This document shows, piece after piece, positions 3,101-45,100 of a stretch of 64,000 nucleotides of DNA. The position numbers were made by a program, and so were the translations under genes. Numbering within the stretch: position 1 is the first letter of the stretch; each line of letters starts with the position of its first letter. Source of the DNA: Branchiostoma floridae (Eukaryota; Chordata; Leptocardii; Amphioxiformes; Branchiostomatidae); NCBI RefSeq assembly GCF_000003815.2, contig NC_049981.1:1268600-1332599 (forward strand). Reading direction: 5' to 3'. The notes beneath the pieces are model-generated. The model had not been told where the DNA came from. It ran no database searches and saw nothing but the letters and a program-made list of their open reading frames with translations.

Positions 3101-6100
3101 AGAAAATGAGTACGTCTTCAGGATCGCCGGGTTCGTTCCTATAGGTACGACTGTAGGAAGCGTTATGGCGTTTGATCCTGATGAGGGAACAAATGCCGAA
3201 GTGTCCTATAGGATTGGAAACGGAAACGTCGAAGACAAATTTGCAATCAACTCGGAAAACGGCACACTCTACACTGTCAAGGAATTGCCGACCAATGATA
3301 CAAAGGAGTATGAAGTCACTGTGACGGCAAGTGATGGTTTGTTCGAGGACAGCTGCATTGTCAAGGTGCTCGTCCAGGGAAAGCAACATTTTACAGAGGC
3401 AGAAACCATTGCAAGAATCCGACTTTCTGGTGAGGCAGGTGAGAGCGTAATAAAACTTTTGGATAATTAAATGACAAGCCATTGTCAAGAGTAAGAATTG
3501 ACATACTTCAGTGCAAATTATGAGAAGACCAATCTAATCTACCATTTGAGTATCTGTCATACCTACTTCATCGATACCTATACTGCGTTCAGCACTGTTG
3601 ATATTGTTTTTATCCATTCTTCCTCTTCTTTTCATTATTCTTTCTTTAATTCCTTCCTTTTATGCAAACGTTCAACACAGAAGATTTTATCTTTATGGTT
3701 GTTATGATACTGTCGCAAAACTTGTCATATAAGACAACAAAACAGAGTTACACGAGCCCATATAAACCACATAAAAACCTTAAATCTGACGTGTTTTGAA
3801 GGATACAATTGTTTATGCAATCGAAGTCCATAATTCTAATGATATTCTCTACCTGAATTAGAAAAGGTATGAATGTCTTATCTTAGCATGAAAGACTATA
3901 TTGCAATATTGTCATTAATCATACAAATAACATCCTGAGTTTCTTGAATAATGTTGTGTGACGTTCAGCTTTAGCAGACTTGTAAAGCTCGGAACCTTAG
4001 TCTATATACAAATACAAATAAAAAGTATGGTCATAAAATATGTAGACCCAATATTTCAACCCAGGTACACCGTTGAATCTGCATTATATCCTAAATGTTA
4101 GAACCCTTTTCTTTTAGAAATAAGTAATGCAATAACAATAATGTTCAAATACAACATATTCTGTTTTCGTTCTATCGACTTTGCAGAACAGAAAACGTGC
4201 GCCTCAAATGAGTTCGCCTGCATTTCCGGTGGCGGCTGTATTCCCGCCAGGTGGCGCTGTGACGGTGACCCAGACTGCAGTGACGAATCTGATGAAGTAG
4301 ACTGTGGTTAGAAGAAGTTATTTGTTTTAATGTAGAGGCATGTTTATACTGAAATGTTGAAATCTATTCTCTAGAATCTTCTTTGTGTATATAGGTAGAT
4401 ATCTGTCTGAGATAGTAAGGAATGTCAATAGATTACTATTACGCAAATGAAGACCAACATGATTGATTAGAAAAGGCTAAAATTTTGCTGGGTGGGGATT
4501 CCAGCTAAATAAAGTTTAAGTTTGAATGATGAATTGTGTAACTACTTCGGACACATTTCTTAGCACCAATATTGCTTTGTATTTCCTGGCAGGAAACTTT
4601 ACTTGTGAATCAGACCAGTTCAAATGCGGTACCCATCAACAATGTATCGACGTGAGATGGCGCTGTGACGGGGATGATGACTGTGCCGATCGATCCGATG
4701 AAAAGAATTGCGGTGTGCCATTTTCTAAAAAATATCAGTTGCGACATGCTCAGTCATGTTTCAAGCAACGAACAGCAAAGAGTCAAGTTCTCTGACACGT
4801 AATTTTGCTCCTGTCATACTGTAAATAGAGCATAACTGTGAAACATATTACAATTGATTGGAAATGTTAATTTGGGCTCTACATGGGGGATACCTGAAAA
4901 GGAATTACCTTGTTTTTGCATATTTTTTTTATTATTTTGCTCATTTAGATAGATTTGATGAAGATATTCTGGTGAAGATACGAGTATAAGGTTTGCATAT
5001 ATGACGTGTGAAGACTATGTAGACAATAGTATTTCGAGGGTAAATACAGAACAACAAAATGCTATCAATAACAATAAGGTCATATGTAGGTGATCTGGTT
5101 TCGCATTTGGATTAGGTACAAATAAATTGACCTTCGTAGGAAAATCGATACCAGCACATGGAAAATAACGTTCTGTGTACGTACCAGTAAGGGTTTTATT
5201 TGCTGATTGTACTGCAGGTGAAGTTACCTGCGGACAGGATCAGTTCCAGTGTAGTAGTGATGGGAAGTGCATCAACGCTGACTGGCGCTGTGACGAGGAT
5301 ACTGATTGCAACGATGGTTCAGACGAGCAAGGATGCGGTACGTACTTAAATTATACAGTTTGTATATAAAGCAAGATTTTGCTGTAGGAAATACCAGTCA
5401 AATTTTTAAGACCCCGTTTTGTTTTGAGTTTTAGTGGCCGTATGTAAGAGAATTTTCACGTAAAAATAATTTTGATACATAAAGTGGAATCTACGTCTGA
5501 AATTATACCATCACCAGGTCACCAAGTATAGACACAAAAATTACTAATATTTTTGGAAAGAGAATACCCTAAAGTGTAAGCATTTTTGATAGCGAATGGT
5601 TGAAAATTATCCGACCCGGGTGAGAGGCCTAGTAAAATGGTGAACCTAGGTCAATGGGGCGACTGACTTCCAATCAGATGAATGTACGAAATCACATCAC
5701 TTCTTCCGTAACGACTTTTTAACGATGTCAGCATTACATGCCATTTGGCAGCATTGGGGGACAAGAGACCCCTATCTTTTGAAATTTGAAGGTGCAGGTC
5801 GAAAACATTGCTGGCACAATTGGCGATTATGTCAAATGTATCCTTATATATTATGTAATATGATATATCATGCACTGTGTGCCAGTAAGGGAGATGTGTG
5901 TTTTATTTGCTGATTGTTTTGCAGGTGAAGTTACGTGCAGACAGGATCAGTTCCAATGCAGTAGTGATGGAAAGTGCATCAACGCTGACTGGCGATGTGA
6001 CGGGGATCAGGATTGCAACGATGGTTCAGACGAGCAAGAATGCGGTACGTACTTTGCAGTTTCTAACACACGAAATACTGGTCAAATTTTAAGACCTATG

Positions 6101-12100: not shown

Positions 12101-15100
12101 AAATAACAATAAAAACCTTTGAATACGTTTGGTAATGAAATGATAAAAATACAAAATCATACCATTATAGATACTGTAAATGATCTATCGACAACCTAAT
12201 ATACTATTATGAAAATTTATATGCAACAGTTTCTATGTACGCATAATAATAATTTGATTGTTACTTTATCCGTGGCAAAATTCATTTTGTATTGTTTTTG
12301 TGTTCAGCAGTACGGCGAGTCTTACGCATCATTCACAGGCTCGACTGATGACAGACAGTTCTGGCTTTGCATGCTGAACAAACAAACCAATAGNNNNNNN
12401 NNNNNNNNNNNNNNNNNNNNNNNNNNNNNNNNNNNNNNNNNNNNNNNNNNNNNNNNNNNNNNNNNNNNNNNNNNNNNNNNNNNNNNNNNNNNNNNNNNNN
12501 NNNNNNNNNNNNNNNNNNNNNNNNNNNNNNNTGACGACAAACCAAAATGGCGGGATGACTGGCGCTGTCGGCCGGGGTTCTCTGCAGAGGGCGCTAATAC
12601 GGCAGAGTGTGACCCTACGTCATGTTTCCCATGCTGCTCTGCCGGTGGCTGGTGTGGAATCACTGAAGACCACTGTGAATGTCCAGGATGTACTAACTAC
12701 CAGGAGATATACGGTACAAACATTTCATCATAATATTTCAAATACATTTACCTTTCAATTTCATAAATCATAAATCATTTCTAAACAACTAAGTTACATA
12801 CAGGATCATATTTCAGAGGAGACATCGCGGAAACGAGTTAGTTGTAATGGCTGTTGACCAGTGTTTTTTTTAATATTCTTCAAAACAAATTGATAGACGT
12901 AGACTTACAACTTTAACTAATTATTCTGACAAGAACCTAACCGATTGCGACGAAAGGAATTGTAGCAAGACAAAACACACACACACACCAGTATTGGTGT
13001 ATCATGTATACCCAATCATTTCAAGCTATTTTACTAGCAGTACTATTTGATAATCTAAAGATATTGCTAACTTCACCGATACGCCGTATGATCTACGATG
13101 TCTCAAGACGTCTCTCTTTAAAGGGGTCCCAGCAGTTGTAAAGGAAGAAACTGTAGCAGCACCAGAGAGGAGATGGAGGGACGATTTCCGATGCGGATCT
13201 AACTTTCCTGCACCTGGAGCGGACCCAGGCGAATGTGACCCCCATTCTTGCTTCCCATGCTGCTCAGCGTCAGGTTACTGTGGCCACATTTTGTCAGAGC
13301 ACTGCGACTGTCCCGGATGTGTGGACTACAGATTTCACAATCGTTGGTATCTTTCTCAATGATGTAACGAATGAAGTTCTTTATTATATCTACATTATTT
13401 TTGAAATGTGAAATATTTCCTGCTATAGGTATGGTATCCATTATAAACATGTTAGCTTAAGCGGGTGTCTCACAGGGCCGTGTCTGTTGGTGACTATTGC
13501 CGAAACTTTGCGATTTTTTTTGCTATATTCCCTGACGGTCTCAAACGGATTTAAAATGTGACCACTACAAAAAAGATCTTGAAAAAAAATGATGTTGAAT
13601 CCTCAGTTTTAGCCCCAAGTTAGCTACAAGATAATTTCGTAGAAAATATTAGTGTTGCCACTTGATTAACAACCATTTAGATACCAAGTATCTTTAAGAA
13701 AATATCATTGTTGCTACTTGATTAACGACCAGTTTAGATACAAAGCGTCACTTGATTAAAAATCCATTAAAAGTTTTGGCATGAAGATTCATTAAAATGT
13801 TTGCAGTGGTCACGCCTGTTTGCAACTGGGTCTTGTCTAGATCGCGCGGAATCGCGACGTTTTGCCTATTGTGGATTGTTTTAAAAGATCTGCTGATTGC
13901 TACTGTTGGCGAATATCTTTCGTAACAGTCCCCAGTAGGTGAGATCGAGTAAGATGCCATCTTAAGAGGTCTGATACAATTTTTGTCGTCAGAGAACGGC
14001 AGTAGATGGCGTGATGACCTCCGCTGTGGTCCAGACTTCCCAGCCCCAGGAGCCGCCTCAGGAGAATGTGACCCCGTGTCCTTCACTCCCTGCTGCTCCA
14101 TCAGTAGCTTCTGTGGAAGCACAGAGGAACACTGCAAGTGTGAAGGTTGTGTGGACTTCAGAACGGGCAGTAGAGAAAGCAAGATTACTCATACCACAAC
14201 CACAGGTACATTCCTGGGGACGTTTCCCACTGGTGAATCAAGCAAAATGTATTCTTACCTGGTCTAAGAAGGTTGTATTCTCTGTACCGTTAACTTGCGT
14301 TATTATGTATGTGATGTGTGTTTAAGCACCATACCTCAAGTATCTATAGATGAATAGCCAGTCTTTAAACTTGAAAAAAGTAGAGGAAATGGTAAAAATA
14401 AATTAACCTTTGGTTGTTTGCCTTGGCACTCACTGTCACAATATGTCCGGTTTTGATATCTCGTGTCTGCTAAAGCTATGGTTATGTTTTCACGAGGAAG
14501 ACAAGTCGTGTGCTCGGAAATATCGTAGGTTCGAATTTTCTTATTTGGTGACTTCATTTGCATATTTTTTCTATATCTAAAACGCATCACAAGTCTTTTC
14601 TTTCCAAAGATGGCGACCCATTTGAATGTCTTTCAACCAGCGATGGTACCACATACCGCGGTAAAGTACGGACAACCAAATCAGGACATACCTGCCAACG
14701 CTGGGATAGTTCTTCTCCACACAGGCACCAGCACCTACAGAAGTACCCGTACCACGGGTTGGATGAGAACTTCTGTAGAAACCCAACCGGGCGTCCACTT
14801 GCTGAGGGACCGTGGTGCTACACAACAGATCCAGACGTGGAATGGGAGTACTGTGACATTCCTGAATGCGGTAAGTATTACTGTACCTTACATTTATACA
14901 TTAAAAATGGCAATAAAAAAGATGGATAAAAGCGAACGTGTAAAGTACATAGCAAAGAACACTGGCGCAATGATGTTTGATATGACAGTCAGATAGATAT
15001 ACTTCTAGTTGTGTTGATAAGGATTATGATAAATTATCATTGCTTAGTTTTTTGTATAGTTTAGATGTAATATATATTGCATTGAAGGCCGTACCTACGA

Positions 15101-21100: not shown

Positions 21101-24100
21101 TAGTTAGCGCCCAATATTTTAATCACAATTTTGACGACTACTTGATTACCATTACCGATGTCCAGGCGACATGTCCGCTTAAGTTAAGAGGTATTTTGTT
21201 TCTTATTAGAGAACGGCAGTAGATGGCGTGATGACCTCCGCTGTGGTCCAGACTTCCCAGCCCCAGGAGCCGCCTCAGGAGAATGTGACCCCGTGTCCTT
21301 CACTCCCTGCTGCTCCATCAGTGGCTTCTGTGGAAGCACAGAGGAACACTGCAAGTGTGACGGTTGTGTGGACTTCAGAACGGGCAGTAGAGAAAGCCAG
21401 ATTACAGGTACAGTACCGAGGACGTTCTCCGCTTATGTGATCTTGAATAAAGCAAAATGTACTTCAATTTTGCTAAGAAGGTCGTGTCTGTTGTTGCATG
21501 TAATATATGCATGTAATATATGGTTTAGCACCATACCTAAAGTATCTATATGTGAATATTAATGAAACTTGCTATATGGTTAGGATATGAAAAGTAGAGG
21601 TAAGATGATTTAAAGTTTGGTGGCTTGCCTTGGCACCGTCGCAGAACGTCCGGTTTCAACTAATATGTGCTTAAGCTATGGTCAGCCGCCACGCCACGTC
21701 GAGAGTTCTATGGAATTTTATTTTCCTTCCGCGAGAGAAAGTAGTCCGTTCTATGATTCCGAGCGTTAACACCCCCAACAAGAAAGCCTGTTGCTTGAAT
21801 ATTTTACCACGTATCTTTTTTACTTCAAGTTATTTACAATCTACCAGCTTTGTTTCGTACTCCTATAGTTTTTTGTACCGATGATTTATCGCTTTCCTGT
21901 CAATAATACGACCCGAAATTAGCTTATTTTCGTGTGATTTCACCTCTTGTTTTTAACGTGTTGTAGACTTCAAACCAACAGGAAATTAAGTGTGTAAGAA
22001 AGGGCAAAATCTCTATTTTTTGTTGGTATATGACTTATTACACATTTCAAGGGCGTAAAGCATTTGCCGCCAATCCGCGCGAGGCGATGTCATCAGGAGC
22101 GGTCATTTTTGATTCCAGAATAGAACGCGCGCGTCGCCTGGAGCGGAAGCAGACGTTCTGGTCCGTGGGCTGGTAGCGGCCGCGATTTAGTCGTCTCCCG
22201 ACCGAAATCTCTTCTTGTAGAATAATTACTAGAGTCCATTACTTTTGCATCTAATTTACTGGTCGATTCCAAGACGTCTTTTTATGTCTCGTTCCATTGA
22301 TACTAAAAAAAAATGGCAAGATCAAGGACCCATCAAGGAGGTTAAAAAAACCAGGTTAAAAAAACCTTGGTAAGATCTAGTAATTGTTTAAGCTTGCAGG
22401 TGGAAGGGTCACCGAGCCAAAGAGAAAGTTCTGCCCATTTAACCAAGATGGCAATCCCAATCTTACCAAAGCGCACCTACGAAACTACATTTTTGTAATA
22501 CCTCAGAGTCTGTTTTATTAAAGAAAACTATTACATGATGTATCAAATAATAAGAGAATCAGAGTTAAATGTCATGCCATTCACGTTCCCTATAACCAAT
22601 AAGGTTACATGGGCTCATATAGCCTCTTTGCTATAAACCTAACCAAGGTTTACAGTATGGTTACTGGTAACATTTCATTCATAATTGTCAACAGTTCATA
22701 TCATATATGTTTGACACATTTAATTACCATGTACCTAAATTATACCTAAGGTGCATGGAATGATGCATTGTCAGTTAACATTGAGCCCAATAAGAAACCA
22801 AAAGGTTCAACTTTTTCTTCTCTCATTGACCTAGATTCACCTAAAGTATATAACCCTTCCTATTGTACTGTAAAAAACAACACAATGAGCCATATATGTT
22901 AAATACCAGCCAAACTTTATTAAACAAACAAGTCATGCCTAAATATTGATGCCCAATTGGAAACAATACTTGGAATCAAACAATTTACTGCCAAACATCT
23001 GGCGATTCTTTGGGCCAGAATGATAATTCCAATAATGTGAAATGATATGATTGAATTCACGCCAAATGATATGAATAACCAACAAAGCTGTCACCCTCCT
23101 CAGATCCACAGCAGAACATCACCTGTATAAACATATTTCAAAGAATGTTAGGAAAAGTACATATTCTTTAAGAATTTACAATCATTATGATTAATAGTAG
23201 ATATATCATTCTGAATTTATACTTCACTTATTACATGTGTATCTGCAATGATACAATGTCAATCAAAGAAATTAAAGTTACAGACAGTTGAGCTGCAAGA
23301 GGCACATCCTCAGCTGATCTGGGGTAGAACTCCATCTAATGCAAAAACAAACAAAAAAGGTAAATATCCATTCGTCATACATCAGGTACTTACCGTACTT
23401 ACTTACTCATCAATTACAGATATCATACACTCAGTCAGGCACTCACACTCATTCACTTACTAGTACTCCTCTTAGTATCTTTATTTAGATATATGTTAAA
23501 TATATTATCAATTTTATCAAGAAATTTCTTAGACTAAGAATATATTAACGTTATATCTAAATTTTAAGATCATATGTTTAGCAATGACCCTAGACTACCA
23601 AACCCATAGGTGAGGGACAGCTGGAGTAAGGAAACAAAGTCAGAACCTCCAACCTGCACCCGTACCAAAGTGCGGGGTTACGCCTTTCCCGTCAACTCGG
23701 GGATCTGTGTGATGTACCCCATGTTGACGTCGTTAAGTACGACCTTTACAGGGGTCAGGCGCCTCTAACCTACCTACGGGGGCAGATGTCTAAACCTAGC
23801 AGGAAGGGGTTCTTTGGAAAAAGGAGAGAGGGAGAGAAAGTGGGTGAAGGAGTACAGAAAAGACCAGCTTCCCCTCACCTATACCTTAGGCTATACAAAA
23901 ATAGACAGTCCTATTTCACTCATTATTACCCTTACTCTACCTCAGAAAATTCTGAATCAGAAATATGATCTAATAAAGACAGACTACCACAATAAAAGTC
24001 ATCTATAAGATTTACATAGTCTTGATCATCACTACTGCTACTACTATCTGAATCTGTTTCAGCATTGTCCTGACTTACCTCATTTTGCTCAATACAAATA

Positions 24101-27100
24101 GAATTAGAACAATCTAAACACCTACATCCTGGACCACATGCTTGACCTTTCTTGAGACACTTACATCTTTTACTAGAGCACCCACTTTTACATTTACACC
24201 CCCTGGTTAAAAACTCCACAGTCTTCTGCACCTTTTCAATATTTTCTTTAGAATCCCAAGTAATCATTAAATTACCATGATTATCTATTTCCCAACCGTA
24301 CCTATCTAATAATACAGACGAAAAATCCTGCTCTAAAGCCTGAGCCCAAGTGAGGTAAACCCAACAAGAACGTAACCAATGGAACCAAAGGGACTGAAAG
24401 GAAGGTAAACTATTATCTTCAAACTCTATTCTTTCAAAGATGGCACCCCTAATAACTTGTAACCAGTTTTCATGAATCTTTGAAATATTATCCCCCCTCG
24501 TTTCTCTGAAAAGTTGGGCTGGAGATGAGTACTTAAGAAAAGCAGAACGGTGTTTTTGAAAGTAAACACTACCAACTAAACGAACAAAAGCCAAGAACCC
24601 TGTATCTTTATCTGCACAAGAAAGAGAACCACTAGTTTGGTCAGAGTTTCCACTAGAAATGAATTCTGAAAACTGAAAGAAAGTTTTCATAAATGATACC
24701 TTACCAAGGCCAACAAAAAAGGAAACATAATCACAACCTGTACATATAAACAGTGACTGAATTATATGGGGTAGTAGATATCTAGAAAGGGAGGAAAGAT
24801 CAGGGTCCTTGTCAAAACAAGATAGCAACTCGTTCACATCCAGACATTGCCAATTTCCTGGTTCAGCTTTTTGTAAAATGACAATTCTTTTATCTGTATG
24901 CCTCACAAAAGGAAGGCCCACATGATACGTGTCCGTATCAGGTGAATAAATCATTATGTTTTTGTAACTGCTTGAAGCAGCATGCAGCCAAACACGAGTG
25001 TCACTTTCCTCGTGATTGGACCTACAGTCTGGAAATGGAGAGATGCCATCTACTGAAGAAACAAAACACATATCTCTCTTATCATCAGTAAATGCCCCAG
25101 CTGTGAACACTTTCTGTTGCTGCCTCAAAAAAGGTGTACAAATTGTAAGTAAAGAAGTACATAAGTAAGAACATAACAAACGTTTGTTTGGGCGCAAGGA
25201 AATGAATTTTCTCCAGTCTTTTGGGGTGCATGTATCATCAGAAATTGAATCAAGTAGTGTTAAATTGTCATTTTCCAAAACAGAATCTCTTCTATTTCTT
25301 TCAACATCTTTAGGACTAGGGCCATTTCGGTGGGGGTCATCAAAAACAATATGGACTTCATAACAACCTGACTGAAGAAAAGGCAAAACCCATTTTAGAA
25401 ACAGAAAATGTGAATACTCAAGAAAAGTTCTATGCTGACCTAATGGAGATGTATTGATCAAAAACATTCCTTCTAAAACAGAGCACTGGGGAGAGAAATT
25501 GGTAGGGTACATTTTGGTGAAAGAACTAGGGTATCTAGACTGGAAAAAAGAAGTGGTTGCTGATTTAGCCCCCTTGTGAGGGACTCCATCAGCATTACAT
25601 AAAGCACGAGGCAGCTCCAGAAACTGACCTAGCTGGGGCAAATCTAACAGGTGGGCAATTTCAGATAGGGGCTTATTTTGATTTTGGGACCAGGAAACAA
25701 CTCTACGATAACATTCTAAAACTAACTTTTTGTCTTTTTCACTTTTGGAAACCCTAGACTTTGTCATTTTAATTTGAGAAAAAGTTCTTAAAGACTTTCG
25801 TCTTTGGGGTGCTTTATTACTTGGATTGTTAAGTATCCTGAACCTAATGAATGTGTCTAATGATGCCTTACCTATTTCCCTAAACTTAAGCAAGTCTTCT
25901 CTTTGAATATCTGAAATAGAAGCTCCTGTAAATGGTTGGGACAGACATCTATCATGTACAAGGGCAGAAAAAATGCCGGCATCTACAACTTTTTTTGCAT
26001 AATAAACAATATTCAGCCTTTCTTGTTCAATGATAGTCGGACTAAGATCAGTTTGAGTTCTACAATTTGTTTTGACAAGAATTTGTTTTTTAACTTGTTT
26101 AATCAATTTAGCTCGATATGGTAAAAACAGAACAAGATCTTCAATTACAAATTTGTTAGGCCCTGTAATAACTTCTTTTGTGTCCCTATTTATCAACATT
26201 TCATGACTCTCATCTAAAGCTACATTAGAATAATTAACAGAATTAATACTGGTAACAAATCCCCCCTCTTGGAAATATCTGAGAATATGGTCAGGACAAG
26301 ACAATATATCACAAAGATGCAAGGGAATGATTCTAGAATATATTACATGGTCAAAGGCATGGAAAAGGGGTGCCATCATTTTGTATGAATACAAACGCAA
26401 ATTCCAATTCCCTGATCTAATTGCTATGAAAAGAGAAATATATGCCATAAAGTCATCATGAACAAATCTGTGCCAAAACAAAAATACTTCATCCCGGGCA
26501 CATGCTGTGGAACAAAACTCCTTGAAGTCATCTTCTATACCTTCTAATTCCATTTTCAATAATTCCTGTCTTCTTACAAAGTTGTCTCTATCAAAACCTG
26601 GGTCACTAAAGTGCGGTACTGATTCTAAAAATACCCTTACCTTATCAACAATAGTCTGGGCTGAAAAAGAACAACTTGATGAACATTGATCAGTAGTGTC
26701 AGTACTATTCCTTCTATACTCTAGAAAAGCTTCAATTTCACATCTGTATAAGGCCTCCCATACTTGAAGCAAAAATTTATGAGTGCGCTTAAAATGTTTA
26801 CATAAACCAACTGAAAGTAAAGTCTGTCCTTTTATTCTACCTGAAGCGATCTGTTTCAACCCTCCTTCCCAATAAACTTTCATTAATGCATTCTGGTAAT
26901 TTTTCAATGTATGCCAATCACCCGGAAAAATAATCAACCAACTTAAAGCGGGGCCATACTCCTGTTTTAATTTGAGAAGGTGGTCATAAGTTTTTGCATC
27001 CCCAACAACAACTAAATATTCAATATCAACGCCAACATTAAATGAAGTGTGAAGGAAATTAAGGGCTTTTAACATTGTCTCCTTACAGTCAGCATTTTCA

Positions 27101-30100
27101 TTCATTATAGATAAATATGCAATATTAGACTTTTCTGTGACAGGGTCCCTTTCTAAAAATAGTTTACATTTCAAACTGGGTAATTTATGAGAAGAATCTG
27201 TCAAATCTGATATACATCTTTCAAATTGATAAAGTAATACTTCAGAATTAAATTTATGAGACTCTTTCATTTCTTCTTCAGATATTCCAAACTGTTCGAA
27301 GGTCAGGGATATTGGAGTGGAAGGGACTATAGACTGAACACAAGATGGGGGTGTAAGGGATAAAGTACTATGATCAATTTCCTTTGGTGACCTTTTTCTT
27401 TGCCTAAACTTTGAAACTAATTTGATTTTCTTTGATACTGGCTCATCAGTTTCAGTAACATTACCTATACCTACAGAGATATCTTCACTACTATGTACAG
27501 ATGAATTTGGCTTGGGAATAAGAAGGGATTTAGGTTTTGGTTGGACGGCTTGAATAGATGTACCGTTCCACCCTCTGGGACTACCTGTCACAGCTGCATG
27601 GGGACTACCACTATTGATGTTGTCTATAGAAGCTACTGTAAAAGAACCTTCTGTCAAATTATAATGATTATCTTCTAATCTCAATTGATCTAACATTCCA
27701 GAAATAAATCTTTTATGAGAATCATTGGAACAACATACACCAAGGCGATTTAACAATTGCATAAGATCAGTAGACTGGCTATAAGAATGAATTAATTCTG
27801 AATTAATCATATGAAAAGGATAACTACACTGACCGTCAGAGACAATAAATAAGATAAGGAAAGTAGCAAAAAGACGTCTCAAAAACTTGGAAGAACTATG
27901 GCTAGAATTATTCTTAAGAAATGTTAAATAATGTTTATTCATATCAAATGTTTCAAAATCAGACATAAGAATTTCAGACTTTTGCATAGTTAATACAACA
28001 ATAAAGTTCCAAACAATAGGGTTTATTTCTTTTGAAATTTGCAACATGTCAATTTCATGGAGGGAACTTGGACACTGAACAAACTTATCAATGAATTTGG
28101 AAGATTCTTGATGAACTAGACTATTCATGTACATCAAAGAAGATAAAAGAGAAGAATTGATTGTGTCTTGATTTACATCTGTGAACATAGAAGCGATGTT
28201 GGACTGAATAGACTTTAACTCAAGATCCCGCTTGTAAGTGTTTAACCGTGCAGAATATAAAGCTAAATGAAGGGATTCAATTAAATCAGCATCTTTATAG
28301 TATAACAAAAAACTTAGTTTGTTACTTTTGCTTGAACTTTTGTGGATTAAAAAAAAGTTTCCCAGATCACTCAATAACCCAACTAATAGCCATCTGGCTT
28401 GAAAATAGAAAGCATCAGCTTCGTCAATTTGTTCCTTCCTGTCAAATTCCTTAATAAGTGTCTGAATACTCTCTACATAACAATCATAAGCATCAACAAG
28501 TAATGAAGATTTATTCTCCAGAAACAATTCACCTACCTTACAAGAAACCTGGTGCAAAGCTAATTGTGGTATGTTTTCTAGGCTATGTTCTACTTCAAAA
28601 TTCCTCAACATTTCTAAGCGTTTTTCTAGACTTTCCTCACCCTTGACAAGATTCCCTGATCTATATAAACATTGATAACAATAGTTGCACAAAATAGACC
28701 CTTCTAACAAATTTGAGTCAACCAATTTTAAAGCTGATTGTGGAATATTCAATTTTGGACAGAACCGTTTCCTTTTATGTGACTTTATTACCTTGCAGCA
28801 ATGGGTACATTTATCTTGTTCATTAAATCTACAAAACTGATGATAATGAAATGTGCACATATGAATAGAATTTGGCAAGGAACTACATCCTGTAGCTGCT
28901 TCAGAAATGGAGAGAATGTAAGACATCATGTCATCAACTGAGAAATTTTTACGCTCATGGTTGGCCAATTCGTGGCATAAATGAAACTCAGACATGAAAC
29001 ATGGTTTTTGTGGCAATGTTGCATCAGGAGTGTCAGTGGAAGAATTTGATATTTCTGAAACTGAATCTTTGGCCAGCCGTCGAAAGTTACGCTCACATGA
29101 ACGACACACACAGTCTGTACTAGAAAGTCCTGTATTATCGATTACCCAAGTTCTAAGTGATTCATTCCATCCCTGTGGATGTGTATACTTATCAAATTGA
29201 AAAACAGGTGGCTTCTTACAATGGGCACATGCTGAGGAACATGGCCTGTCTGGATGAAAATTAATAGGTTTACCTCCCCCCACAACCAAAAAGTGTCACT
29301 ATCACAGTCTTATCATGTATTTCTACAAAATCATTTTCATCATAGAGAATACTGCCCCCCAAGCTAAGGTTTCTACATGAAATGTTGAATCCACATACAT
29401 TACTTACCATCTTTTGTAATTTACACACCTGAATACATTTGCTAGGTGTCCCAAGAGTAAATAACTTACCTTCAAAACTGACAAAGAAAGTTTTACAGGA
29501 ATCACTATCAGTACTAGACTCACAGACATCACTATTACTTACATATTCTACCCCATCCTTACCAGACTCACATACATCACTATCACTCACATCTTCTACC
29601 CCATCCTTACTAGACTCACAGACATCACTATCACTCACATCTTCTACCCCATCCTTACTAGACTCACAGACATCACTATCACTCACATCTTCTACCCCAT
29701 CCTTACTAGACTCACAGACATCACTATTACTTACATATTCTACCCCATCCTTACTAGACTCACATACATCACTATCACTCACATCTTCTACTCCATCCTT
29801 ACTAGACTCACAGACATCACTATCACTCACATCTTCTACCCCATCTTTACTAGACTTACTAGACTCACAGGCAACAATATTACACTCATTTCCCCCCTCC
29901 TCACTACTCTTACAGGTGACATTATCACTAACATCTCCTACCCCCTCCTCACTACTCTTACAGGTACTAGTACCTACCTGTTTAACCTTTTCCACCCACC
30001 CTGAGGGATTAAGGGGCCCACTATACAACATTCTAACCTCTAGCCTAGTTGGTACTGACAACTTCTCCCTCTTAGCTTTACCACTAACCCTCCTACACCT

Positions 30101-33100
30101 AGTCTTTCCCCTGCTAAACCCTCCTAATACACCTGTACTCTCCTTGCCCTTCCTAAGCTTACAACTACTCCACCCTGTAGGACATATTACATACTGCACA
30201 TCTTCCCCTTCACAACCAATACCACACACAACCTCACCTTTATCTTGTGCTTCTTTAAACTGACTAAGCCTTTTATTCATCATATTCTTCCACTCACTCT
30301 TACTCAATGTACGTGTGCTCCTTGGCCGGGAAGGACCCTTCCCCACACTACCCCCCTCTACCTTCCCTGGGGCCGGTCTAGCTACAGGTACCCCCCTTGG
30401 CCGGGAAGGTCCCTTCCCCACACTACCCCCCTCTACCTTCCCTGGGGCCGGTCTAGCTACAGGTACCCCCCTTGGCTGGGAAGGACCCTTCCCTGCACTA
30501 CCCCCCTCTACCTTCCCTGGGGCCGGTCTAGCTACAGGTACCCCCCTTGGCTGGGAAGGACCCTTCCCTGCACTACCCCTCTCTACCTTCCCTGGGGCCA
30601 GTCTAGCTACAGGTACCCCCCTTGGCTGGGAAGGACCCTTCCCCGCACTACCCCCCTCTACCTTCCCTGGGGCCGGTCTAGCTACAGGTACCCCCCTTGG
30701 CTGGGAAGGACCCTTCCCTGCACTACCCCTCTCTACCTTCCCTGGGGCCAGTCTAGCTACAGGTACCCCCCTTGGCTGGGAAGGACCCTTCCCTGCACTA
30801 CCCCTCTCTACCTTCCCTGGGGCCGGTCTAGCTACAGGTACCCCCCTTGGCTGGGAAGGACCCTTCCCTGCACTACCCCCCTCTACCTTCCCTGGGGCCA
30901 GTCTAGCTACAGGTACCCCCCTTGGCTGGGAAGGACCCTTCCCTGCACTACCCCTCTCTACCTTCCCTGGGGCCAGTCTAGCTACAGGTACCCCCCTTGG
31001 CTGGGAAGGTCCCTTCCCCACACTACCCCCCTCTACCTTCCCTGGGGCCGGTCTAGCTACAGGTACCCCCCTTGGCTGGGAAGGACCCTTCCCTGCACTA
31101 CCCCTCTCTACCTTCCCTGGGGCCAGTCTAGCTACAGGTACCCCCCTTGGCTGGGAAGGACCCTTCCCTGCACTACCCCCCTCTACCTTCCCTGGGGCCG
31201 GTCTAGCTACAGGTACCCCCCTTGGCTGGGAAGGACCCTTCCCTGCACTACCCCTCTCTACCTTCCCTGGGGCCAGTCTAGCTACAGGTACCCCCCTTGG
31301 CTGGGAAGGACCCTTCCCTGCACTACCCCCCTCTACCTTCCCTGGGGCCGGTCTAGCTACAGGTACCCCCCTTGGCTGGGAAGGACCCTTCCCTGCACTA
31401 CCCCCCTCTACCTTCCCTGGGGCCAGTCTAGCTACAGGTACCCCCCTTGGCTGGGAAGGACCCTTCCCTGCACTACCCCTCTCTACCTTCCCTGGGGCCA
31501 GTCTAGCTACAGGTACCCCCCTTGGCTGGGAAGGTCCCTTCCCCACACTACCCCCCTCTACCTTCCCTGGGGCCGGTCTAGCTACAGGTACCCCCCTTGG
31601 CTGGGAAGGACCCTTCCCTGCACTACCCCTCTCTACCTTCCCTGGGGCCAGTCTAGCTACAGGTACCCCCCTTGGCTGGGAAGGACCCTTCCCTGCACTA
31701 CCCCCCTCTACCTTCCCTGGGGCCGGTCTAGCTACAGGTACCCCCCTTGGCTGGGAAGGACCCTTCCCTGCACTACCCCTCTCTACCTTCCCTGGGGCCA
31801 GTCTAGCTACAGGTACCCCCCTTGGCTGGGAAGGACCCTTCCCTGCACTACCCCCCTCTACCTTCCCTGGGGCCGGTCTAGCTACAGGTACCCCCCTTGG
31901 CTGGGAAGGACCCTTCCCTGCACTACCCCCCTCTACCTTCCCTGGGGCCGGTCTAGCTACAGATACCCCCCTCGGCTGGGAAGGACCCTTCCCTGCACCC
32001 TTCCCCTCTACCTTCCCTGGGGCCGCCCTAGCTACAGGTCCCCCCTGTCGGACCACACTAGCCCACTCCACCTGTCTCTGGTACTCCCCTGACTTCGGCT
32101 CCTCTCCTGGATGCTCCTTGTCCTTCTTCCCACTTCCTCCATCCGTCCCCAACCCAGGCCACTCCTCATCCCTCAACGTAAAGCGATGCTGGCAGCTGCG
32201 ACGGTGCAGCTGCAGGTAGTGGCTCAAAGAAAAAGAAAGATACTTGGCATAGCTGATGTTCCCCGCTCTACTCAAATGTAAACCATCAACAGAAAACATG
32301 GCCCGGCGAGCCCGGCTACCATTGTCAAGGAAAAACACACCCTGGCGAGAACATAGGCGAAGCAAATGAAAGTTCAACTCAGAGCGCCTCCTGTCATAGA
32401 CCTCAGAGTCAAACCTAGGCAGGATGCTAGAGATGACAACAGAGGCTGACGGGAAGCGAGACTTGGTAACAGAAATAAGGTAACTGAAATCATCAAGAGT
32501 CCGGCTGAGTGGACGGTGCATGGGAAGACAGTTAGTCCCCGCATGCAAGAACACCAGGTCAGGCTCAACAAAAGGGTGACGAGAGATGTCAGAAGTCAAA
32601 TCATATACGGAAGCTCCAGGGTGCGCATTAAGGGAAAACAAAATGTCAGAAGAGAAGGTGGCATGGTTGGAGACATACTTACAGATAGAGTCAGTGAAGG
32701 CAAGGATGATCTGAAACAAGAGATAAAGTTTTGTTTACTTATTATTCTTTTTCTTAAATGAAATTAATTCTAGATAATGCCAATATCATATCCTAAGTGC
32801 CAATACTGATTGTGTCCACACATCCGCAGTTACACATCAAAAAGCCAACACCTTGGTACTGGAATCTAACGTTACAAGCAAATGGAATCATAGAAAATTA
32901 CTTTCAAAATCATTTCTGAAAAATGACAATCCTACTGGGGAGTGGCAATGGTATAATAATATACACATTGCATTATAATTTGTATATATCTTCTTCTTCC
33001 AGTGCAAGCCCACATTAATGTGGATGAATATTATGCAGTTGTTGTATATGATATGGCATTATAAGAATTGAGCAGCACCCATTTTTAATTCAGTCTAGAT

Positions 33101-36100
33101 CATTGCTAACGTTACATCTTAATTGTGACGTGAACCTGCGTTCATGTGGCAAATCTTCAATCACACTACGTACTACCCTTGGTGACGCACCAGCGTTACT
33201 ATGCATTGTTTGTTTGTCTTCAAAAATCTGCATGACAACATCAGACTTGCCACTATTTTGGCGGGAAATTTTCATCGTAACACATTGAAATCGAGGAAGA
33301 TATTCTCAAGAACTGCGCTATTAATTTTACAATATAGCCTATTTTCACTGATACATTTCTCCCAATGCAATCTGTTAAGCTCTCAATTAGGCAGATGGTG
33401 GTAAATCTATCACGTCCGACGACAAATATATCGTACAAAGGAGGATACAAGAAATAAAACACATCGGCCTCAGTGATTCAGTAAACAAACTATAGTACTC
33501 GGCATTACGAAAAGTACGGACCCTCACATTTCGGTAAAAAAACACACTGAAAAAGTGGCCCCAGCAGACATGAAAATTCAAACCTACCCAGATTTCAAAC
33601 CAACAAGATATTCCAGTGAGATATGAAGGAATGTTCAACAACTCTAACTCAGTATTCATTTCAGACATACGAAAGGGCGTAAAGTGTTTGCCCACAATCT
33701 GAAAATTGTCTAAAATTTGCTTTTCATGGGGCGGCCATTTTGCTGATTTCGCTGTGTCCTGAATTAAACCATGAAACTTTGCTAAAATCGCTGTAAACCC
33801 GACGGAAATGAGTTGTATAGAGAGCACATGAAAAACACATCCGGACTTACCGCCATTTTCGCCGAAGAGGCCGCACATGTTGATGCAATTCGCTGTCAAA
33901 CTCGGATGAAATTTCATCCCCCTGGCGCGGGAAAATGGTGTCCTTAGCAACGGCGTTGCTATGGACGGCGGATGGATATCCTTTGCAAATAAAGTCCGTT
34001 CCATTTCTGTTCGATTCACTACGTGGCTTGGCGGCTGATGGTTACGCTTTCACGAGAAAATAACGTTGTTTTGGTGCCTTTAACGGTTTTCTTCATTAAG
34101 AACTTCAGGGGACGTCTCAGTTTCAAACTTTGATTCATGTAAGGTTGAAAATGAAGAAATAATTTTTGACTCGTTGGTAACTCTGACGAACTTTTTGTTG
34201 TAAGGCAATACTGCAACAGTTGAGGGATACACTTCTCGCCATGGAGACTGCCCTGGGAACGACATCTGGGCCATTTACCGAGACCAAACCTCATTGGATG
34301 ACTGCGCCCGGCTGTGTACGAGCCATCCCGAATGTGTCAGCTTCATGTTCTACAATAACCATAGGTGTTACCCTAAAACAAAGTCTTGTGCAGACACCAC
34401 AATGACTAACCCAAGGAACGTGTTCTATGACAAAATTCTCGGTACGTTGTTTGTAATGAAAATGAAGATGTTAAGTGTTAACTAAATGTTCAGTACTTGA
34501 ATGCAATAGGTCAGATGTATAATTCATTAATTTATGGCATGGTTTTATGGCAGAATGTTCATATCTTAAGTTTTTAATGTCACAAACAAAGCAATTTCCT
34601 TATGTTATATTATATAAGTAAGGTATTGTCCCATCAATTATGTCAAAGGTGACTTCATTAGCATAATTTTTATCTAGTATGCACATTGCTGTCTTTCTCA
34701 GTTGTATTGTCACATGTTTGATAGTCCTATCATGGAATGCAGAAAATGTATAAAAGTTCATTCTTTCCATAGATGGCGACCCATTTGAATGTCTTTCAAC
34801 CAGCGATGGTACCACGTACCGCGGTAGAGTGCGGACAACCAAATCAGGAAATACCTGCCAACGCTGGGATAGCACCTATCCACACGAGCACAAGTACCTA
34901 CAGAAGTACCCGTACCACGGATTGGATGAGAATTTCTGTAGAAACCCAGACGGGCGTCCAGATGCTGACGTACCGTGGTGCTACACAACAGATCCAGCCA
35001 TAAGATGGGAGTACTGTGACATTCCTGAATGCGGTAAGAATTTTTGTACCTTAGATCTATTCATAAAAAAATGCCAACAAAAATGATAGATACATTGAAA
35101 ACATGAACGTATAAACTTGAAAGTTCATCTGTGTTGGTAGAAGTCATTCTTGAAATAGTTTAACTGTAAATTTCCAACACAAAAATTGGACTCACCCAAA
35201 TTTTCGACTGCACAGTATCAGTCTTTGTCAAGACGTGGACGTATAAAGTCCATAGCGAACAACACACTGGCGCAGCACAGTATGGTATGTAACGTAGATA
35301 GAAATACTTCTAGTTGTGTTGATAGGGAGTTTGACTATCATCAGTTTCTGCAGTTTGATATAGTATAACTTAATACATATTACCATATATATGTATGTAT
35401 ATATATGTGTGTGTGTGTCTATGTGTGTGTGTGTAGCGAAGTTATTATTTGATGCAGTGATGAACAATGAACAATTGCCAGACATTACAGTGGACGTGAC
35501 ACACATTGCTATTCATACTTATGCAGTATATATGCAGTCACGCTTGAGCACGCATCCTTGCCACTGCGTAACAATGCTCTTAGGACTATTAAAACGCATG
35601 AAACAATGAGACGATTAAACTTTACTCCAATCAAGAAATTTTACGCACCGAATCTCACGGTCTTCTACAGTCATCTGATTTGACTGCTGCAGACAAGGGA
35701 TTTTTTTTGTACGTGTGACGTTAGCACTGGGTCAAAGTTCATCGGAAGTCTGCACGAACCCCGTTTCGGATTAATGAAGTGCTGTGTTTTTTTTACCAGA
35801 CATCAGCTCAAGAGAGTGTCTTGACGGATCTACCTACGACGGGAAAATACAGGTTACAATATCAGGGCGTACATGTCAGAGGTGGGACAGTGAGACACCA
35901 CACGTCCGCGATATCCGCTCACCATTTCCAGGACTTGATGAGAACTACTGCAGGAACCTACCAGGACTTGGGGAACGAAACTGGCCTTGGTGTTACACCA
36001 TCGATCCAGACATCCCTTGGGAGTACTGCAGAATTGAAACATGTGGTACGTATTACTTCATAATAACACAAGAGGCAAATAAAGAAAAACTGCAGATCTT

Positions 36101-39100: not shown

Positions 39101-42100
39101 GTTCGATTACGTCAGATGGAACATGATTCGTGTTCTAAATCCCCAAATAGAAGTCTGGAAATTTTGGGGCCAAATTTTACCATCGTGAACATATTTTTCT
39201 TCATCACACATCAGAGAACGGCAGTAGATGGCGTGATGACCTCCGCTGTGGTCCAGACTTCCCAGCCCCAGGAGCCGCCTCAGGAGAATGTGACCCCGTG
39301 TCCTTCACTCCCTGCTGCTCCATCAGTGGCTTCTGTGGAAGGACAGAGGAACACTGCAAGTGTGAAGGTTGTGTGGACTTCAGAACGGGCAGTGGAGTAA
39401 CAGAAGAGTCACCCAGCACAACAGGTGTGAGGAAACTGTCAGATTTTGTATAATTTGCAAAGTTGTCAAAACTATTAGCAGATGATATAAAAGTTTTCAT
39501 GGTGCATCGTTCTATTTGTGTACTTGGGAATGATTTGGAGAAAGTATTTTTTTTGTCTTCAATATCAAATAACTATTTACAAAATGATTCCATACTTATG
39601 ATAACAATGGGAGTTTAACTTATTATTTTTCATATAGTTGTGATGATTTGATGTTCTATCCAAACCACCAATGTCTTGATTTATTCCCCAATTATACTGG
39701 AGACCCTAAAATTATTCTTGCCAGAATATTTGAGTTTTCTATGCCTATCAGACATTTTCATCAGAAGAGAGAGAAGAGAAAATGGTTTATTAGATTAAAA
39801 AACTGTTGCAGCCCAAGGGCTGAATTGCAAATTTTTGTACATCGATTTCTTCACATTAACATAATTTCTTCACAATTTCTTAACAAATACATGGTACATC
39901 ATATTAAATTCATTAAAACTAACTTGTCTGTTTCTTAAAACACTACAAGTTTTCATTGAGGAGTCTAACGCAATAGGGGAGAGTACTGTTACTAAACCGG
40001 GACGTCCTACATTTGAAACTGGTGTAGCTGACATTATTTCTCAGAGTTCTGTTGTGGACATCCCCCCGCCGCGGTGGGAGCCATGGACTGTATCTGGTAG
40101 AGTTCGCAAGAGACTGCGCATATCTAAGACACAGGATGTCCCTTCTAGAGTCCAGACGACTGAGACCTGTTGTGCACAGGGCAGACTCATAGGTGGCGTA
40201 CTCTGGTCCCAGTATGATCCTCAGGACTCTCTTCTGGACGCGCTCAATCTTCCCTGATAGGTCACTGGACAGTCCCGGGTGCCAGACCACGCATGCGTAC
40301 TCCAGAAGTGGCCGTACGAAACCAATGTAAATTGGTATAAGATCACACATGTCCAGTCCGTGCTTCTTCAGGTTCCTTATCATGTATAGTCTTTTGCTCC
40401 CTTTGCTGACAATTGTGGTCACGTGTTCAGTCCACTTGAGATTGTACTGGAGGATAACTCCCAGGATGCGTGCTGCCTGGACTACCTGAAGCTGGGAGGG
40501 TCCAATTGTAATTGTCGGCGGTGGTGGAGGATTTCTCATGAAGCAAAACACCATCACCATGCACTTGGACGGGTTCAAGGACATAAAGTTGGTCTCAGTC
40601 CAACGAGTCAAGCCATTGATGTCGTCCTGAATCCTTGGTGTTGCAGACACATGTCGTGATTCGGAAACAGACATGTCATCAACGTACTTAAAACCATCTG
40701 AAGACGTCTCGTTACTTGGGAGGGCGTCATTAACCAAGGCTAGAAAAACAAGTGGACCTAACTTCGTTCCTTGAGGCACACCACACGTCAGAGTTTGCCA
40801 GTCCGACACTGTGCCCTGATACCTCACACGCTGGCGCCGCCCTGACAGGAAACTGTTCACCCAGGGTACGATGGACGGGCGGACACCAAGGTCAAGTAAC
40901 TTGCAAATGGCGGTCTGGTGGTGGACATAGTCAAAAGCTCGTGAAAAGTCAGTGAGAACAAGTGTTGTCACGTAGCCTGGTTTGTCTGATGCCTCAAGGA
41001 TGTTGTGTACGAGACGCGTCAGGTAATGTACTGTTGAGCAACCATGGAGAGAACCGAACTGTCGAGGGTCCAGGTTAGGAAGGATATCCTGCATGCACCA
41101 GTCACGGACGATTCCTTCACACACTTTGGCAAAGATAGGTGTTAGAGAGATAGGTCTTAACTTCTCCAGTCGCGGTGGCATCTCCTTTGGAATGGGCACA
41201 ACATCAGCGTCCTTGAACATGTCCGGTACCTCACCTTGACACAGAGAAGTATTCATAATGTCACATAACGGCTGGGACAGTTCAAAGGCAAATTCCCTAA
41301 TAATCCTTGGGGAGATGCCATCAGGGCCAGTAGCTTTGCCAATCTTAACATTCCTTAGTCTGTTCCACATGTCCCAGACTGAGACTACCGGGGGTGGAGC
41401 AGGTGACGGAAGATACGCTGGCAGGTCCTCAAGTCGAAGTGGCGCGTGCTTCTGTGACGCCGCAGCGAGATGAGTATTGATGGCGTTGGCCACGTCTACA
41501 GCTGATGACGGGGAGACACCTGGGATGTCAATCTTCAACTGTCCTTTGCCCATGTTGCACATGTCTTTAATAGCCTGATACCACTTCTTCGGATCGGCTT
41601 TCTTAAGACCTTTGATCTTTTGCTGGTAGAAGGCTGTTTTCTTCAGCTGGATGGTGTGGATGATCTTGTTGCGAAGACGTTTTAATTCTGGTAGATTCTG
41701 TTCTTTAAAGGCCTTCTGGCGTAGCAGGATCAGGGCTTTCAGTCCTGGTGTCATCCACGGCTTGTCTTTTTCATGTAGACGGACAACTTTCGGTGGAAAG
41801 TACTTCTCAATCGCACTACACAGCGTGGAGTAGAAGGCTGAGCACTTGTCCGTTGCACTGACCGCGCTATAAACTTCTCCCCAGTGGTGCTCAGTGATCC
41901 ACGATCCGAACGACCGTAAGTCCGACTGTCGTAAGGGCCTGACGATCTTCTTGACAATCTTGTTCTGCATAGAAGAACGTGACTTACTGGACCAAATCAC
42001 GACGTTGTGATCGCTGGCGCCTACCGGAGGGTCCACTGTTGGTAGTTGCACTGTGCAAGGGCATCGCTGGCAAGGACTTGGTCTAGGATGGCATTTTCTC

Positions 42101-45100
42101 GAGTAGGAACAGTTACTAAAGGCTTCAAGGAGTGTTCAGAGCAGATGGCACTTACATCCAGGCGATTAAAGTCGCCAAGGACAACAACACCAACGCCTGG
42201 GTACTGTCTGCGGACGTCGTCAATGGAATCCGACAGGAAATCCAGAAGAGCGTCGTCACGAGTGGAGTTTGGAGGGTGGTAAACGGCACAGAGGGCGATG
42301 GACGACACGGATCGAGGAAGCCAATGCGGCCGCAGTTGCATCCATAAACATTCCAAGCCCGCCGGAACAGGGTTGAGAGGCTTCGCCGTTATAGAGTTCT
42401 TGACATAAACGGCCACCCCTCCGCCCCTCTTGTTGGGACGGTCCCTGCGGAACACGCTGTATCCCTCAATAGACGTGGCTTCTGTCGGCAGATCTTCAGA
42501 AAACCACGTTTCAGTGACAACGGCAATCTGGGCTTTACTGGAGTTGAGGACCAAGCTGAACTCGTCCATTTTATTCACCAGCGAGCGAGTGTTTGTCAAC
42601 AAAATTCCTGGCATACTTCGAAGTTGTGAAGTCTTGACGTGATCACATGTAATGGAACGCAGGTGCTGTTTGCGAGCACTGATGTTGATGGCATTACGGT
42701 GGGATTGAATACCACTACATCGGGATTTGTATATGAAGTCAAGTGACGGGTTTACAGGCCTATTTCCAACAACAGTATTTATGGGTCTCTGAAGATTCCT
42801 ACCAGCTCTGTTTCCTCTGTACCTGCCTCGCGTCTTCAGGACCCCAAGGCAGCGAAGGTGTGACTTCAGCAGAGGTTCAACTGGCAGTGCCATCCGCCTC
42901 AAACTGCGCAGAAATCCAATGGAGTACAGTACCCCGGAGGACGCCATGGCACACACGGTCACGCAGAGCTACAGCCACTCAGTCCGAGCTGTTTTCTGCA
43001 CACAAACTTCACTTCACACAGTAGGTTGACCGTTCCGTAGACTCCTCAGACATTTACACAACTGTCAAAACATATATATTGCACAAAAACCTGATGAAGA
43101 CACCGGAGCGGCGCTCTGTAGGAGAGAGGTATAAACCGCGGCTGCTCGCTACAGAGCGCCACGTAATATAGCGAAATACTGATCATGATGAATGGAGTGC
43201 TTTATGACGATTTTGTGGCAAGAATAGCACTACAGTCAGAAGCTTGAAGACCTTTGCTGAGGCATCATCAAAACGTAAGCAGGTGGGAATTTACTGGTAC
43301 TTAAAAAAACAAACTCCAATCTGATATAATCATTTCGGATGCTTTGTTTTGTTCTTGTTACAGTTGAACCACTAGAATGTCTCACAGACTACGAAGGTAC
43401 ATCTTACCGTGGTACAAGACAGTTTACCGAATCAGGATTGACGTGCCAGCACTGGGATAGTACTTTTCCACACAACAACACGTACTTGGAAAAGTTTCCT
43501 AACAGCGGATTGGATGAGAACTTCTGTAGAAACCCAGACGGGCTACCAGATGCAAGGAAACCGTGGTGCTACACAACAAACCCAGATGTTAGATGGGAGT
43601 ATTGTGACATCCCAGCGTGCGGTACGTACCATGTTTTCTGACAATTTAGAATCTTCGGTCTTCGGAATAATAGAGTAAAACTCAAGAATGATGTTTCCTT
43701 TTTGCAATTTGGAATACAGTATATACTACATAATATCCTTAAATAACACTGTTTCGATGATAACATTCTGGGAAAATCTTTGAATATCTAGTCAAAAATT
43801 ATGGACATAAAGCAATGCGTTTCGCCCATTTATACAACAGCCATGCAACTACTTTATGGCATATGTGCTTTATGCCAATAACTGCTAGTTCATTTAGAAA
43901 ATTGCTTGACGTTTCAACTTGATTACATAGATCAAATTGGTAAAATACCTTAGTTCTTCAATATTTCCTACACAACATCTCAATGATATGTGTTTTAGCA
44001 AATATGCAGAATATGTTGTCAATGTAAATTAACCATGGCTGTAAGGTAGCTTATTTTCATCTATAGTCATTAAATCAATTACTTAATTTTCTTCAATTGA
44101 TAGAAGACGCTGATGATGCTACAACAACCTGCGACCTGAACCTTCAAGAGCAAGCAGAACGTTGCAAGGCAACCGAAGACGCTCCGATCTGCAGTGGTCA
44201 TGGTGTCTGTGATTGTGGGCAGTGTAGATGCCATCACAGCCTCCCCATACTGCCCTTTCAAAGGTTTACCGGACAGTTTTGCGAATGTGACAGCCTGTCA
44301 TGTGACCGATACAAGGGACAAATTTGTGGAGGTTTGATTTGAATTGATTTGGTTGATTTGCACATAAAACGAACGTACAGAAAGTAAAGTTAAAAAATAA
44401 CATACAACGTGCAGGAGAGAGGAAGAAGCCAAATAGGCTTATACATGCCCTCCTAACAAATACTAGTACTAACAAACTACGATGAAATAATTTAAATATG
44501 AAACAGATGATAACAAATAGATAAGTAACAATTAAATGATTAACGACAAAGAAATATAGTAATTATTATGACATAAATGGAGCTATCTAATAGGGTAATA
44601 ACAAATCAAATACAGTACGATATATCGATAACAAAATATAGGTGCATAGAAAATTATTGAAAAACAAAAAAGGTAGCAATTAAAGTCCTCTGACTGTATA
44701 TATGTTAACCATAGCAATAAGTTTCGTCGTTACCTTCCAGTCTAGTACGACTACTCAAGTAACTACCATCTGTTGTTTTCATGTATCTTGATCTATTTTA
44801 CACACTTATATTTTGACTTATTACGCCTCAGACTATTTCGTTATTTGTATCTGTATGTAACAGACACAATCGTCATTCGGCAGCTGCGCGGCAGCAGCTT
44901 GTTATACTATACTGAATAAACTGTCAGAAACTGATAGGCACTTGACAACATTGGTTCACTCTAAAATTGTTCTTGAAGTTTCTTCTTTAATGCATCCCCT
45001 TCCTCAATAAGCAATAGTAGGTCTCTTTATTTTAACACGTACAGATTTTTGTCATAGCTACTATGACATACTCTTTCCGCGATGTTATTCCAACAGGACA

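Follow-up and report, generated by a model that had tools for sequence, protein, structure and literature searches.

In a 64,000-nt stretch of the Branchiostoma floridae genome (contig NC_049981.1, positions 1,268,600 to 1,332,599 of assembly GCF_000003815.2; hereafter the window, to which plain coordinates refer), the 12.36-kb element at 21683-34037 is a complete DNA transposon with terminal inverted repeats (TIRs). It is best explained, with moderate confidence, as a cut-and-paste XPG-nuclease transposon resembling AcademX that has a single gene on the minus strand. As part of the same explanation, and held with like confidence, the gene product would be a polyprotein consisting of an SGNH esterase, basic repeats, a 114-amino-acid (aa) segment, acidic repeats, a ubiquitin-like (Ubl) domain and the transposase. 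The transposase part belongs to an established type, and the polyprotein around it is new to us. One open literature library held no paper for the combination of ubiquitin-like domain, polyprotein, transposon and transposase, nor for the domain DUF6589 found in this transposase, which does not show that the family is undescribed.

The left TIR (CAGCCGCCACGCCACGT, 21683-21699, plus strand) lies on the 3' side of the transposon gene and the right TIR (CAGCCGCCAAGCCACGT, 34021-34037, minus strand) on its 5' side. Each is 17 bp long, 16 of the 17 positions are identical, and the target-site duplication (TSD) ATGGT stands on both sides, at 21678-21682 and 34038-34042, all as described in an earlier sequence-only reading of the window. 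That reading had called the borders secure and proposed a search for other copies with the same ends; many were found in the genome (513 Mb in 431 contigs, searched with the element ends), and the borders recur in them. Of the 46 matches to the left 1,018 bp, five are short pieces from the interior, and 39 of the remaining 41 start at base 1; the right 1,001 bp gave 45, and once five short pieces are set aside, 37 of 40 end at base 1001. Copy counts are lower bounds, as 40 of 132 left-end and 40 of 90 right-end candidates were scored, with the window copy counted in both. The left terminal ~446 bp (21683-22128, plus strand) are retained in diverged copies at 75-80% identity. Among ten copies fetched, C6 and C13 align near full length, at 97-99% identity over long blocks (parts of C6 at 92%), C12 aligns over the left 3.7 kb only, and seven are diverged, with similarity mainly at the ends. 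The C13 copy is 99% identical to the window copy across the right 1.8 kb, and the synonymous divergence (dS) between the window copy and C6 is 0.03. Both values support recent activity of the family; the window copy, for which such activity had been suggested, is itself frameshifted. The paired left- and right-end coordinates also include a group of ~1,755-bp copies that look non-autonomous.

When the flanks of the element are joined with one ATGGT, they align to 14234-14499 (plus strand) with 68% identity over 275 columns, and AAGCTATGGTTA is intact across the junction. The insertion point is read through with a single ATGGT, as the proposed empty-site control had it; the site, a diverged paralogue belonging to an array of repeated genes, controls the insertion point rather than being an allele. 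Repeated host segments (families D9-D14) lie at 12500-39500 on either side of the insertion, a pattern like that of a duplicated gene array.

The TSDs vary in length. Thirty-one copies were examined and 26 scored, five with one end missing being left out; the tally omits a second left end at C9:21157 as well as C10, C12 and C14, which showed no right end. The TSD is 4 bp in 14 copies, 5 bp in six (window included), 6 bp in three and absent from three, and the 23 TSD-bearing copies have 23 different TSD sequences, none of them TTAA. This variation inside one transposon family is real, because in a control with flanks deliberately mispaired 650 times, agreement reached 4 bp in three pairings and exceeded it in none. 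Of the three copies without a TSD, one adjoins an N gap, another has a second right end next to it, and the last has a right flank in common with another copy. The right ends C5c and C3:11925 have a common flank, and some insertions therefore sit in duplicated DNA. The 5-bp TSD of the window copy is genuine, but a fixed length of 5 bp is not supported, 14 of the 23 TSD-bearing copies having 4 bp. TSDs of a different length, which had been named as a sign against the borders, do occur; the borders stand nonetheless, because the terminal bases themselves recur in other copies.

Two long minus-strand open reading frames (ORFs) overlap at 29270-29295, and had been taken for two separate, intact ORFs of 1147 and 1785 codons. 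Comparison with other copies shows a single polyprotein gene, split in the window copy by a frameshift at the junction, because the seven copies that share the G-run have five Gs there and C6 reads through. The G-run before AGGTAAACC counts six Gs in the window and five in all seven other copies with the same run (C6, C13, C11, L049, L050, L052 and L053). In the diverged copy L051 the run is replaced by other codons, and the peptide GGGR is still in frame. The Ubl domain and the transposase follow each other in a single frame in L049-L053, and C6 has one open frame covering both parts, 2,762 residues long and including an N gap; this continuous frame rules out two independent ORFs. The decayed copies L054, L055 and L114-L117 are broken in other ways, and five Gs are found in L115-L117 as well (the L055 row of alignment A1 was shortened at its frame break). 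By the length of the window copy, the full polyprotein would comprise ~2,930 codons. Alternatively, the six-G junction might be functional, with programmed +1 frameshifting giving a minority transposase-containing product like the gag-pol of retroelements; the window frames, both long, open and overlapping at the G-run, would suit this, but it is very improbable, as the seven other copies with the same run all have five Gs and no break there. The extra G is either a mutation or an assembly error, and unless it is the latter, the window copy can probably be mobilised in trans only.

The transposase frame (P0001; 23932-29295, minus strand) is 1787 aa from stop to stop, with the first Met at residue 101. 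It contains an N-terminal Cys-rich region that looks zinc-finger-like by eye (29086-29247), followed by a Pfam match to DUF6589 (1.9e-10, 26167-27261), an XPG/Rad2-like nuclease with VFDD, HEESD, SPDTD and GCDY motifs (24661-25488), and a Cys-rich domain of the CXC (tesmin/TSO1-like) type (5.5e-4 and 20.6 bits, below the Pfam cut-off of 23.5; 24100-24204), all on the minus strand. The ratio of nonsynonymous to synonymous substitution (dN/dS) against the 77%-identical copy L089 is 0.18 over 1,640 codons, and that of the Ubl domain is 0.15-0.41, values that show purifying selection on both parts. The transposase has two further lancelet homologues, 1,516 and 1,583 aa long (L111 and L112), the first a zinc-finger/XPG/CXC protein (BLASTP E=3e-39) and the second seen in alignment. 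The ends of the L112 relative were not found, as the similarity of its two copies runs past the fetched stretch.

Residues D558 (27624-27622), D766 (27000-26998) and E1032 (26202-26200, all minus strand) are invariant in the four aligned proteins and make a candidate DDE triad, with D558 lying N-terminal of the Pfam match. Likewise invariant in all four are D1319, E1429, E1430, D1432, D1453, D1455 and D1522 of the XPG part. With a profile of the nuclease (A5), Exonuclease 1 is found at E=1.8e-4, the VFD..K..R..RR and GCD motifs being in register, and the sequence criteria point to an XPG/Rad2 nuclease domain within the transposase protein. Single-sequence phmmer of the transposase and of its XPG part against the PDB yielded no useful match, and hhalign of the XPG part against a typed-in FEN1 no useful result; neither an NCBIfam search nor scans for relatives in viral and prokaryotic contigs were informative. 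DUF6589 has 55 matches in the lancelet genome, counting the transposon's own copies, and 14 control genomes have none. One of these loci, L110 (C1:28781000-28785600), holds a DUF6589 ORF of 1,210 aa that is still open where the locus starts; by eye, its domain includes an ankyrin-like stretch, and no XPG part is visible.

Other superfamilies fit less well. Kolobok, whose TSD is TTAA, and KDZ/Zisupton, with a TSD of 8 bp, were rejected by TSD alone, the former as TTAA never occurs among the 23 TSDs and the latter on the length of 4-6 bp. AcademH has a helicase domain and a 9-10 bp TSD; the Pfam scan of P0001 and of the upstream frame P0002 has no helicase, and the TSDs are 4-6 bp. AcademX, the XPG-encoding Academ group, has a reported TSD of 3-4 bp (PMC10045372, citing Kojima 2020). 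Similar to AcademX, the element has TIRs, a 4-bp TSD in most copies and one protein that combines a DDE-type transposase candidate with an XPG/Rad2 nuclease; it differs in TSDs that span 4-6 bp and in a transposase that has no start of its own and stands behind the SGNH domain, the repeats and the Ubl domain. Two observations weigh against the placement: DUF6589 is unmatched in both canonical relatives, and 9 of the 23 TSDs are longer than the 3-4 bp reported for AcademX. Altogether, an XPG-type, AcademX-like transposase is well supported by its domains. The XPG branch of Academ, proposed at the outset, agrees with the nuclease and with the homology to the zinc-finger/XPG/CXC protein, but the family name is provisional. 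The variable TSD and the unusual architecture could also denote a lancelet-specific superfamily unrelated to Academ and defined by SGNH-Ubl polyproteins and 4-6-bp TSDs; we regard this as improbable in view of the homology of the transposase-XPG-CXC part to ordinary XPG-type proteins of the same genome.

The AcademX-like element carries further domains upstream of its transposase. An SGNH hydrolase domain of the type found in ORF1 of long interspersed nuclear elements (LINEs) is encoded at 32180-32710 (minus strand). P0002 matches Pfam GDSL_2 (PF13472) at 1.4e-8 and 35.8 bits, above the cut-off of 32.9, and contains the catalytic S, N and D-x-x-H motifs by eye, so that family profile and motifs together indicate an SGNH hydrolase. 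Its best solved relative is the 'ORF1-encoded protein' of PDB 4c1b (E=3.8e-9), which we take to be the zebrafish ZfL2-1 ORF1p, an esterase of an L2 LINE. Moreover, locus L123 of the same genome has a 30%-identical SGNH domain (PF13472, 4e-9) in an ORF that precedes an endonuclease frame (PF03372, 5.5e-12), in a LINE-like arrangement. Compared to the ORF1 esterases of L2/CR1-type LINEs, the domain is of the same SGNH type and keeps S, N and D-x-x-H, whereas here it is fused in a DNA transposon polyprotein and no reverse transcriptase follows. A stand-alone SGNH ORF of 228 aa with 44% identity to the transposon's domain, slightly under the Pfam cut-off, was also seen at L122 (C3:4515900-4518400).

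The esterase is followed on the minus strand by 23 basic 25-aa repeats (75-bp units, net charge +81; 30320-32044), the 114-aa segment (29978-30319), which is recognisable by eye in the C9 copy (L113) too, and an acidic region (net charge -38; 29498-29977) with 7.4 copies of a 48-bp (16-aa) unit at 29512-29868. Upstream of the esterase, the gene is predicted to start with ATG GCG (Met-Ala, 33851-33856), directly before the donor GTAAGT at 33850 of a predicted intron (32711-33850, minus strand) that ends in the acceptor TTTCAG. Exon 2 would begin at 32710, with the remaining coding sequence in one ~8.8-kb exon. In a right-end alignment of eight copies, six have ATGGCG followed by GT(A/G)AGT and the other two ATGACG, and the frame upstream of the donor is disrupted by 1-base indels between copies. 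The predicted product, in which the tiny Met-Ala exon near the right terminus is spliced to 32710, fits the first strand of SGNH domains, and the L122 relative reads VVVFSDSICKYF at the same place.

Directly before the transposase, residues encoded at 29273-29497 (minus strand) form a 75-aa domain that ends in ...FGCGG at the junction and is probably ubiquitin-like. It is conserved in copies with identity as low as 52-53%, and the junction reads G(C/R)GGG(K/R) in all six other copies with a whole open Ubl domain (C6 and L049-L053). The domain aligns to ubiquitin end to end, from the first strand through the final GG, and in a joint global alignment of three rows against ubiquitin the observed score was reached by none of 1000 column permutations. 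A profile of the domain has four matches in the PDB, among them, at E=0.52, an in-register match to the DSK2 UBL domain; at the same E limit, 563 of 177,635 PDB sequences match ubiquitin itself.

Several results weigh against a ubiquitin-like fold. The top two profile matches in the PDB are dehydrogenases (E 0.1), ahead of DSK2, and the fourth is intein-like (0.98). None of three Ubl peptides has a Pfam match, phmmer of the domain against the PDB gave nothing, hhalign against typed-in ubiquitin and NEDD8 was equalled or beaten by 18 of 100 shuffles, and the joint local-alignment test was not significant (217 of 1000 permutations). The single-sequence AlphaFold2 model has a predicted local distance difference test score (pLDDT) of 42, and begins nonetheless with strand-strand-helix. 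In addition, two decayed copies depart from the GG end, which is absent in L054 and reads CGGD in L116. When the genome was searched with the domain (E up to 10), 20 places came up, 19 of them in or beside copies or pieces of the transposon family and the twentieth, C12:14345849, adjoining a piece of the SGNH domain; further copies of the domain that were sought were decayed or N. In the C9 copy (L113; C9:926763-926885), part of the domain is tandemly duplicated, and the duplication goes out of frame.

Known ubiquitin fusions are those of ubiquitin with ribosomal proteins and polyubiquitin. Similar to such polyproteins, the transposon has a domain of similar size with a Gly-Gly end immediately before the next protein; it differs in that the sequence similarity is weak, cleavage is putative, and three glycines stand at the junction. 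For Gly-Gly processing at this junction, we consider the chances about even. In the proposed mechanism, the minus-strand gene would be translated into a polyprotein from the Met-Ala exon close to the right end of the element, and cleavage after Gly-Gly would be the work of a host deubiquitinase or Ubl-protease. The cut would free the transposase, with its N-terminus near GKPINFHP, from the upstream accessory protein, and the transposase would then cut at the TIRs, with the XPG part helping to process ends or target. Taken as a whole, a Ubl-fusion polyprotein from which host Gly-Gly proteases release the transposase from a retrotransposon-derived esterase accessory protein, the transposase/XPG enzyme leaving a flexible 4-6-bp stagger, is a tentative proposal to which we give somewhat less than an even chance.

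DNA transposons normally encode a stand-alone transposase, and here too it might be produced independently, from a promoter of its own or through alternative splicing, the preceding domain being a linker of another fold with no role in cleavage. A donor-like GAG/GTAAAC at the junction, kept as GAGGTAAA in most copies read, would fit separate production, as would the failure of the ubiquitin similarity in the Pfam and hhalign tests and the ORFs of the relatives L111 and L112, which are without SGNH and Ubl and have no frame >115 aa in ~1 kb upstream of each. Against this stand the continuous frame in other copies and L051, which has no G-run yet keeps GGGR in frame. Moreover, the zinc-finger-like cysteines in residues 1-100 are conserved in L089 and precede the first Met, so that an independent start at Met 101 would lose them. 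We judge separate production unlikely. If release from the Ubl-fusion polyprotein is correct, transposition would depend on a host protease of the ubiquitin family, which would be a new point of control, and the uptake of a LINE-type ORF1 esterase into a DNA transposon would allow the debated role of these esterases to be tested outside retrotransposition.

Elsewhere in the window, a LINE lies at 39943-42968 on the minus strand, with frames for an endonuclease (PF03372) and a reverse transcriptase (PF00078), and host coding frames include a Cadherin-repeat frame (2292-3470, plus strand) and a cytochrome P450 (61404-62111, minus strand).

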